Origin: Alloyangia pacifica
Lineage (GTDB): Bacteria > Pseudomonadota > Alphaproteobacteria > Rhodobacterales > Rhodobacteraceae
Length of the DNA stretch: 64,000 nt
Assembly (NCBI RefSeq): GCF_003111685.1
Contig: NZ_CP022189.1
Location: forward strand, 200,001 to 264,000
Direction of reading: 5' to 3'
Positions within the stretch are counted from its first letter, which is position 1, and each line of letters opens with the position of its first letter. Of the stretch, positions 27,770 to 29,184 are shown one piece after another. A model generated the notes under the pieces. It saw only the letters and a list, made by a program, of their open reading frames with translations, did not search any database and was not told the origin of the DNA. The position numbers and the translations under genes are program-made.

Positions 27770-28189
27770 TCAGTCCGGATCGACCTTGCCGCGCATCGCC
27801 TTGACCTCGCCGCGTTCCTTCTTGGCCTTGATCCTGCGGTTCTTGGACCCGAGCGTTGGTTTGGTGGCAATGCGGCGGCGCGGCTTTTCCAGCGCCTTGC
27901 GGATCAGCTCGGCGAGGCGTTCGCGGGCGATCTCGCGGTTGCGGGCCTGGCTTCGCGTGTCCTCGACCTGCAGCACCAGCGCGCCCTCCTTCGTCCAGCG
28001 TCGCCCGGAGAGACGTTTCAGCCGGGCTTTCACCGGGGCGGGCAGGTTCGGCGAGCGCTCAGCCTCGAAGCGCAGCTCGACGGCAGTGGAGACCTTGTTG
28101 ACGTTTTGCCCGCCGGGGCCGGAGGACCGGATGAACTGCTCGGTCAGTTCCCAGTCCTCGATGTGTATGGTGTCGGTGATGCGCAACAT
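27770..28189 (-). CDS. arfB: Alternative ribosome-rescue factor ArfB (YaeJ)
   Basis: This 139-aa release-factor-like protein hydrolyses peptidyl-tRNA on ribosomes stalled without a stop codon. The catalytic GGQ is at residues 26-28 in RSSGPGGQNVNKV. The basic C-terminal tail (about residues 105-135, rich in K/R: KPRRRIATKPTLGSKNRR) inserts into the empty mRNA channel. Length and tail are typical. The gene is preceded by an unusual structured region with a 17-base Shine-Dalgarno and a micro-ORF, and a strong hairpin 60 bp before its start may be a terminator or attenuator. Confidence 0.95.
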   Translation of the reverse strand: MLRITDTIHIEDWELTEQFIRSSGPGGQNVNKVSTAVELRFEAERSPNLPAPVKARLKRLSGRRWTKEGALVLQVEDTRSQARNREIARERLAELIRKALEKPRRRIATKPTLGSKNRRIKAKKERGEVKAMRGKVDPD

Positions 28190-28247
28190 GTGGCGGACAT
28201 TAGCGCGGCGCCGGGGCCGCGCAAGCCGGTAGCTTCGTCGCCTGAGG

Positions 28248-28286
28248 CACAAACGGCCCGCGCCGGAGGGGCGCGGGCCGTTTGTG
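28248..28286 (-). terminator. 17-bp perfect hairpin upstream of arfB
   Basis: CACAAACGGCCCGCGCC pairs with its exact complement across a 5-base loop that reads CCTCC on the - strand. The stem ends in GTTTGTG rather than a clean T run, so termination may be partial or may work in either direction. It lies between the micro-ORF region and arfB. Confidence 0.6.
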
Positions 28287-28307
28287 AAAGGTCGTTTCTG
28301 GATGGAA

Positions 28308-28337
28308 ATGGGCCACGCGGCCTGTCGCGTGACCCAT
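28308..28337 (-). ncRNA. 12-bp hairpin in the arfB-upstream transcript
   Basis: On the - strand ATGGGTCACGCG pairs with CGCGTGGCCCAT (one G-U pair) around a 6-base loop ACAGGC. Together with the micro-ORF and the 17-bp hairpin it suggests a folded leader or small RNA of about 230 nt between the queuosine-precursor transporter and arfB. Confidence 0.5.
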
Positions 28338-28404
28338 TCGAGACGTCAAGGAGGCGGGCCGGTTAGGTCGCGCCAATTCGGGTTCCTTCACGCCAGGGAT
28401 TGCC

Positions 28405-28461
28405 CTAGCGCACTGCCCTCCGAACTGTTCCGACACCTTTCTCCAATGTGACTCTAGACAC
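28405..28461 (-). CDS. 18-aa Arg-rich micro-ORF behind an exceptional Shine-Dalgarno
   Basis: A GTG at 28461 opens 18 codons and ends TAG at 28405-28407. The product is M-SRVTLEKGVGTVRRAVR, with five basic residues in the last half and an RR pair near the end. The start is seven bases after GGAGG of a 17-base perfect Shine-Dalgarno, ideal spacing. The same bases in another frame open 89 codons (28200-28469), but that frame begins inside the Shine-Dalgarno and runs through both hairpins, so I prefer the short peptide. Translation is an inference; it could be a leader peptide. Confidence 0.5.
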   Translation of the reverse strand: MSRVTLEKGVGTVRRAVR

Positions 28462-28477
28462 TGGATCACCTCCTTTC
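28461..28477 (-). promoter_or_regulatory. 17-base Shine-Dalgarno matching the whole 16S rRNA 3' tail
   Basis: The - strand reads GAAAGGAGGTGATCCAG. The + strand is therefore identical to the conserved 3' end of bacterial 16S rRNA (CTGGATCACCTCCTTTC). Typical ribosome sites match four to six bases. On the same transcript CCTCCTT (28348-28354) and the CCTCC loop of the 28248-28286 hairpin could pair with the GGAGG core and mask it. The 16S gene is outside the window, so the match is to the general alphaproteobacterial sequence. Confidence 0.75.
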
Positions 28478-28542
28478 AGCTGTTTGAAAACGCAAGTTCA
28501 GCGTGCCACGGAAACGCGCATCCGCAAAGCGTTTTTACAGAC

Positions 28543-29184
28543 TCAGGCAATTGCCCTGGAAGAAAGTGCCTTCGAAACGATCATCCGGAAGGGCACGAGG
28601 GCGAGGATCGCCAGCGACAGTTTCACCATCCAGTCGGCGAGCCCCAGCGAGACCCAGAGCGGGACAACGGGGCCAGCGCCGAGCAGCGGCAGCGCCTCGT
28701 TGGCCCAGGACACGTCGTTGCCCGGCTCGAGGAAGCTCAGCGATCCGGCGAAGGCCACCGAGAAGAAGATGGCCGTGTCGAGCGAGCTGCCGACCAGGGT
28801 CGACGCCAGCGGCGCGCGCCACCAGGCACCGCCCCGCAGCTTGTCGAAGATGCTCACGTCCACCAGCTGCGCCACGAGGAAGGCGGCGCCCGATCCGATG
28901 GCAACGCGCAGCGTCACGGCAGGATAGCTGTAGCCGTCGCCCTGCAGCATCACCTGCGTGCCGATCAGCGAACAGATCACCCCGGTGACAAAGCCCGCCA
29001 GCACCACCTTGCGCGCGGCCCTGACGCCGTAGAGGCGGTTCATCAGGTCGGTGACAAGAAAGGCGACGGGATAGGTGAAGGCGCCCCAGGTCAGCCATTG
29101 GCCGAAGAGGATCTGCACGAGGATGTTCGAGGCCAGCACGGTGGCGGCCATGGCAAGGATGCCGGGAAGGTAGGAGCGTGTCAT
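28543..29184 (-). CDS. Queuosine precursor transporter (YhhQ/QPTR family)
   Basis: This integral membrane protein has 213 aa and about six helices. It matches the vitamin-like queuosine precursor uptake family (preQ0/preQ1) by FPVAFLVTDLMNRLYG-like residues 37-55 (TYPVAFLVTDLMNRLYG), the AAFLVAQLVDVSIFDKLR segment near 100 and SSLDTAIFFSVAF near 132. It is 65 bp downstream of the phytase-like gene on the same strand; that gap can fold through a 7-bp repeat GACCCGT/ACGGGTC that ends next to the start codon. Confidence 0.9.
   Translation of the reverse strand: MTRSYLPGILAMAATVLASNILVQILFGQWLTWGAFTYPVAFLVTDLMNRLYGVRAARKVVLAGFVTGVICSLIGTQVMLQGDGYSYPAVTLRVAIGSGAAFLVAQLVDVSIFDKLRGGAWWRAPLASTLVGSSLDTAIFFSVAFAGSLSFLEPGNDVSWANEALPLLGAGPVVPLWVSLGLADWMVKLSLAILALVPFRMIVSKALSSRAIA

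Follow-up and report, generated by a model that had tools for sequence, protein, structure and literature searches.

Between a yhhQ-like queuosine precursor transporter gene (28543..29184, minus strand; TIGR00697, 99.4 bits, cutoff 50.95) and arfB, which encodes an alternative ribosome-rescue aminoacyl-tRNA hydrolase (27770..28189, minus strand; NCBIfam NF006718, 189 bits, cutoff 100), the minus strand of the window, by which we mean the whole 64-kb stretch of DNA analysed here, carries a super Shine-Dalgarno sequence (SD): the 17-mer GAAAGGAGGTGATCCAG at 28461-28477 is the perfect complement of the 3' tail of the host 16S rRNA over exactly 17 bases, the host 16S gene ending in GGCTGGATCACCTCCTTTCT. 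According to the available passages of PMC4117421, 75.4% of Caulobacter coding genes have no SD; if many alphaproteobacterial genes lack one, as may be the case, a perfect SD of 13-17 bases is striking. What does such a sequence do in front of a very short reading frame: does it serve arfB, as an earlier note on this DNA had suggested, does it make a peptide, or does it belong to an RNA gene of its own?

The Shine-Dalgarno sequence and its frame

The earlier note held that a match of this length would hardly arise by chance, and the counts agree: the site is the only one in the window at up to three mismatches, with 0.14 expected in shuffled sequences, and AAAGGAGGTGATCCA has two sites in the readable genome when at most one mismatch is allowed, the element and the 16S end. 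A scan of both strands in 21-nt stretches taken every 3 bases, each paired with the 16S tail, also places the strongest predicted duplex of the 64-kb window at the 17-mer (-29.7 kcal/mol; runner-up -25.4). The spacing had been misread: the 17-mer does not stand seven bases before the GTG (28459-28461) but overlaps it, its last G being the first base of the start codon, and the seven-base gap is that between GGAGG and GTG. The 18-codon micro-ORF itself is present as described, at 28405-28461 on the minus strand, with its TAG stop at 28405-28407 and the peptide MSRVTLEKGVGTVRRAVR.

Distribution

Of 61 genomes searched with 301 bases of the region, 32 gave matches, including all 20 of the genus. 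Alignment A1 comprises 60 non-redundant 18-codon elements, of which nearly all belong, by label or kinship, to Rhodobacterales. We left out repeat copies and any element whose terminator was not called or lay more than 195 nt away, removed near-identical rows from the two sets of elements (101 to 60 and 37 to 36), and dropped six odd or chance-looking matches (L038, L059, L065, L074, L103 and L118, with frames of 20, 44, 14, 25, 32 and 34 codons). The model built from A1, R1, matches 175 nt of the window (28306..28480, minus strand) with an E-value of 4.5e-35 and 148 bits, a score to be read with the window's own sequence being part of the training alignment. Among 150 genomes of the family, R1 has matches in 132 at E<=1e-6 and in 138 at E<=0.01; there is no strong match in the other 18, of which 12 have none and six a weak one (E 1e-5 to 0.01) that was excluded, matches of equal strength also arising as second matches.

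Beyond the family, 92 of 367 class genomes have a match to a start-region pattern allowing up to two mismatches; the reversed pattern, used as a control, matched none. In a second sample, of 239 genomes, 56 matched; all of these are class members, of which the sample has 91, and the 148 other genomes gave no match. This pattern had replaced a stricter one, ending NNNNGA, which the window element itself fails and with which 8 of 387 and 8 of 397 genomes matched. In named genomes the exact pattern occurs in at least 118 stretches, mostly labelled as Rhodobacterales and also as Hyphomicrobiales, Hyphomonadaceae and some other groups. Loci L059, L072, L074, L081, L129, L130, L138, L145 and L146, labelled as gamma- or other proteobacteria, have the exact start pattern, several of them with a terminator-like hairpin; their labels may reflect either binning error or real spread.

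Across 94 sites, AAGGAGGTG is almost free of mismatches, although the pattern permitted two of them anywhere. By column consensus, a CAACAA-like stretch immediately 5' of the SD is widespread among the groups. In one other family, five genomes from three genera (L268-L272) have a mismatched SD core, AAGGAAGG / AAGGAAGGTGATCC, before the same start. Start region and frame are kept far into the class, and the putative RNA gene, as judged by comparison of genomes, is widespread in the family and also present in many other groups of the class.

Extent of the probable RNA gene

Most loci share one layout, in which promoter-like hexamers about 50 nt 5' of the SD are followed by the SD, the start, the short frame and a hairpin, and comparison shows this candidate unit to be conserved in the strand and the order of its parts. 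In the window, a -35-like TTTGCGG (28522..28528) and a -10-like hexamer CACGCT (28500..28505), both on the minus strand, were assigned by eye; relatives have the similar GGCANNCT, and transcription would start near 28493. The best TTGACA-like hexamer lies 48-51 nt 5' of AAAGG in 41 of the 60 A1 elements, and the promoter score of A1 is slightly above that of shuffled sequences (7.52 vs 7.03); a strict consensus scan called no promoter anywhere in the region. At the other end, the terminator hairpin (28307..28338, minus strand, followed by TCC) is helix 7 of A1, with both-sided changes in all 10 pairs and 98.1% pairing; the strict consensus terminator scan called none, and the U tract is weak. 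In most elements a terminator-like hairpin begins about 131-152 nt 3' of the SD, irrespective of frame length.

Both strong hairpins of the original description are present, at 28307-28338 and at 28248-28286 on the minus strand. The second lies between the RNA gene and arfB, outside the conserved RNA, and for 15 of 19 congeners the matching region stops short of it. This genome and relatives have similar pieces at other sites, and the second hairpin may be a dispersed terminator-like repeat. A gene on the plus strand was considered and rejected, the promoter-like hexamers, the ORF and the terminator all lying on the minus strand.

Selection on the start and stop codons

Since A1 was selected for 18 codons, its own 18-codon, stop-codon and frame counts are circular and were excluded. 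In 57 family elements picked regardless of frame (27 by DNA similarity and the best 30 matches of R1, with the first motif used at two loci that have a second SD-like one), the frame has 18 codons in every case, 52 of the 57 being distinct. Codon 19 of these 52 is TAG in 30, TGA in 14 and TAA in 8; it is never TGG, against an expectation of 8.1 that assumes independence of the two variable stop bases. Named loci with yhhQ upstream have 18 codons in 70 of 71 cases and 22 in one. The start codon of the A1 elements is GTG in 57 and ATG in 3, and its first base at the 94 sites of the class is A in 52, G in 33, T in 8 and C in a single chance-looking site whose SD is broken. The frame also stands out where its length differs: in 29 class-sample loci picked by the start region alone it has 14-36 codons in 27 and 56 or 58 in the rest, whereas the other two frames fall within 14-36 codons in only 12 and 11; and in the 36 other-group elements, counted after the six odd matches had been removed, it has 21-35 codons in all 36, against 13 and 3 for the other two frames. 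The 58- and 56-residue versions, in frame at L193 and L196 of one other family, have an N-terminal part that resembles a signal peptide by eye.

The peptide itself is far more variable. Within the family a core, MSRxxLERGVGT, is recognisable, its serine at codon 2 being imposed by the search pattern, and codon 11 varies synonymously in A1 (GGG in 32 and GGA in 23 of 60). Codons 4-5 and 13-18 vary freely at the constant length of 18, amino-acid similarity in A1 is marginal (of 300 column shuffles, 15 reach the observed value), and the peptides of other groups, order-specific and mostly of 20-35 residues, look unrelated. By this comparison the start and stop codons are under selection and the peptide is only weakly conserved; selection on both codons is compatible with a translated frame.

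Predicted fold

In the consensus fold of A1, 97.1% of cells are paired, and both-sided changes occur in 16 pairs, against 6.9 in shuffled alignments, none of 500 of which reach that number; the fold had been drawn from the very alignment on which it was tested. Around the start codon, a hairpin formed by TCCAGTGT/ACATTGGA (28442..28465, minus strand; helix 2 of A1), also present in the minimum-energy fold, has 96.9% of cells paired and one-sided changes only. A small hairpin, GGG-CAAT-CCC with a CARY loop (28396..28405, minus strand; helix 6), overlaps the last base of the stop codon; it is 98.3% paired, with both-sided changes in 2 of its 3 pairs. This GGG-CARY-CCC hairpin stands at the stop codon throughout the family (A1 columns 79-88), and many elements of other groups have a similar GAGCAGCCTC, in frame, before the stop.

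The remaining helix of interest, helix 1, is predicted to join the SD to a 3' box, CGCCTCCTT (28348..28356, minus strand), which would act as a lock on it. In A1, 97.9% of its cells are paired and changes in the box mostly keep the pairing; there are no both-sided changes in this helix because the SD hardly varies, and the same near-invariance means that pairing with the SD cannot be told apart from an independent role of the box. The window RNA, taken as 198 nt, has a predicted fold of -86.2 kcal/mol in which the SD is paired with CGCCTCCTT at 28348-28356. Opening the SD would cost 14.7 kcal/mol and the duplex with the 16S tail would be worth -34.6, as computed in isolation, outside the context of the ribosome. 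With masking defined as a mean unpaired probability of the SD below 0.2, the SD is masked in 51 of the 60 A1 elements; in 48 of the 60 the 3' box is listed as its partner, and in most of the rest the 5' leader. Elements of other groups are masked in 9 of 36 and 4 of 29 cases.

Outside the family a different long helix, joining codons 2-6 to the strand before the terminator, is supported by permutation. The alignment of 34 other-group elements (A2, made with MAFFT, L123 and L137 omitted) is too gappy for pair counts, so this closing helix was tested by permuting partners: in 53 other-group elements each strand's pairing with its own partner averages -8.06, against -5.67 (sd 0.31) for permuted partners, with none of 2000 permutations reaching the observed value, in a set that retains related sequences and omits L137, 10 of 30 class-scan loci as near copies, and loci without a usable match. 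As far as these models go, the lock looks like a modification, particular to the family, of an older RNA. What is kept across the family as a strand-specific unit is the SD, the ORF, the 3' box and the terminator, and of the roles first proposed for the locus, that of a small RNA has held up.

Relation to CC2171 and other known RNAs

CC2171, an sRNA of Caulobacter, reportedly has its source in Landt 2008. It is the best Rfam match of the window RNA (RF01867; 39.0 bits, E 3.5e-7), full length over model positions 1-159 and not cut off, at a score below the gathering score of 75. At the gathering score Rfam gives no match here, nor at the element of 19 other loci, CC2171 appearing only in E-value mode. 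Across 41 genomes RF01867 has matches at E<=0.1 in 31, one of them, outside the window's family, above the cutoff; of 14 control genomes 4 match at that threshold, 3 of these genomes being unrelated and their matches presumably due to chance. The two RNAs share the order of parts: a CAAC leader, a super-SD followed by NTGTCT, with GAAAGGAGGTGATCCAGTGTCT of the window identical to the consensus, and a terminator hairpin at the 3' end. Elements that start with GTGTCTCATTGTC resemble the CC2171 consensus and have the same layout. They differ in that the closing helix of CC2171, CAUuGuC/GaCaAUG, which joins codons 3-5 to the strand before the terminator, is mostly deleted in the window sequence, where the SD is instead predicted to pair with a 3' CRYCUCC box; and whereas the available text of the Rfam entry types CC2171 as an sRNA gene and mentions no ORF, the window RNA carries a micro-ORF. 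Judged by these features, the window RNA is a divergent relative of CC2171 and not a member of it.

Among the papers listed by our literature searches, one of them dominated by work on 16S primers, we found no function for CC2171/RF01867 and no description of the super-SD or micro-ORF of this RNA. CC2171 is absent from the main text of PMC5521070, and the available parts of PMC5082802, PMC5988900, PMC11005374, PMC12559287 and PMC5107571 contain no match to the window RNA. For CC2171, Rfam 15 lists one extra covarying pair, according to the relevant part of PMC11701678, and in Mesorhizobium huakuii the RNA MH_s33, annotated as RF01867, is given as 215 nt in sequencing in the part of PMC5596092 that covers it. 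The rnTrpL/peTrpL RNA of Sinorhizobium, as presented in excerpts of PMC10117765, likewise combines a short frame with a terminator in one short transcript; it is, however, a leaderless attenuator RNA of trpE, whereas the window RNA has a super-SD and, beyond its own family, no conserved downstream gene.

Anti-SD sRNAs of the CUYCC type expose their CUCC motif in a loop. In the predicted fold of the window RNA the CUCC box is not exposed in this way but paired with the SD. Like the SisA-D RNAs of Caulobacter, as far as the accessible text of PMC12559287 describes them, the window RNA has a box, CRYCUCC, that could in principle pair with other SDs, but here it is predicted to be paired with its own.

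Alternative explanations

The earlier note tied the element to arfB, and such a leader or attenuator, in which stalled or scarce ribosomes on the micro-ORF would allow read-through into arfB, has the parts in the right order (leader ORF, hairpins, terminator) and arfB on the same strand within 300 nt downstream in 46 of the 60 A1 elements; no separate promoter is called for arfB, though the scan calls none anywhere here. As a rule, however, the coupling does not hold. The element and its terminator are kept where arfB is farther away (7 of 60) or is not found within at least 1 kb (6 of 60), that is in 13 of 60, one stretch being too short to judge. The upstream neighbour yhhQ, at 55 of 60, is better retained than arfB, as would follow from synteny alone. 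Among the 36 elements with other frame lengths, the Sulfitobacter locus L137 has arfB 563 nt downstream, and none of the remaining 35 has it downstream on the same strand, four of these stretches being shorter than 1 kb. The flanks of other groups differ, with 19 of 20 Pfam-scanned proteins neither arfB nor yhhQ, and the next ORF of at least 90 codons is on the opposite strand, often convergent, in 16 of 29 hand-picked loci, which argues for synteny rather than an arfB leader. On this evidence we regard the leader as highly improbable and have rejected attenuation of arfB as a general role; RNA and gene probably share a neighbourhood and not a regulatory circuit. At L050 and L131, of which one bears the label Hyphomonadaceae, arfB is located upstream and runs the other way, so that more than one arrangement of the neighbours exists.

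An ordinary small mRNA, whose peptide is the product and whose SD is simply very strong, would account for selection on the start and stop codons, the synonymous variation at codon 11 and the family core, and order-specific peptides elsewhere, with 56- and 58-residue versions in two genomes, fit it too. It sits poorly with codons 4-5 and 13-18 being free to vary while the length is fixed at 18, with the unrelated look of the other-group peptides, and with RNA structure and the SD-to-terminator distance being conserved instead; we consider it unlikely. An untranslated decoy that sequesters 30S subunits or 16S 3' ends would explain both a complementarity longer than that of the usual SD and the nearly mismatch-free AAGGAGGTG of the 94 sites, yet it leaves selection on the start and stop as codons without a reason, and is very unlikely. 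Chance, or a stray copy of the 16S 3' end, as which the plus strand reads, has a negligible probability: the similarity to 16S ends after 17 bases and the stretch is part of a structured unit conserved in most of the family. The 16S remnant was rejected on the same limit of 17 bases, and the spread of the start region through the class likewise speaks against it.

A probable stand-alone RNA gene

The reading that we hold, on balance, to be probable is that the locus is a stand-alone RNA gene of about 190 nt, whose product is a small mRNA or a dual-function RNA that engages ribosomes and bears a lock specific to the family. The RNA would be transcribed on the minus strand from its own promoter, as the hexamers suggest, to its own terminator, and the 17-base SD would load ribosomes onto the GTG of the 18-codon frame. 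In the family, the SD is predicted to be held by the 3' CRYCUCC box, the roughly 15 kcal/mol of opening being paid by a 16S-tail duplex of about -35; that this opening must be paid for would explain the length of the SD. Ribosome entry and translation of the short frame may then switch the RNA from closed to open, which would make its structure, lifetime or pairing partners depend on free ribosomes. Ribosome entry would on this account be the purpose of the RNA, the peptide a minor product or none, and the output the state of the RNA or its 3' box. A ribosome-sensing role, raised from the beginning, is compatible with a masked super-SD. A more specific version, which we think quite unlikely, is a ribosome-supply switch in Rhodobacterales: the RNA would stay closed when free 30S subunits are scarce, and when they are plentiful the 16S tail would displace the box, the 18 codons would be translated and the freed CRYCUCC box would repress mRNAs through their SDs. 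If this were true, a single RNA would convert ribosome availability into translational control.

An RNA that Rfam classes as an sRNA, and for which we found no function, appears to be part of a class-wide group whose most conserved part is the landing site of the ribosome; in this group the start and stop codons persist even as the peptide changes. Should translation itself be the signal, such RNAs would give simple genetic access to the way in which these cells sense free ribosomes.
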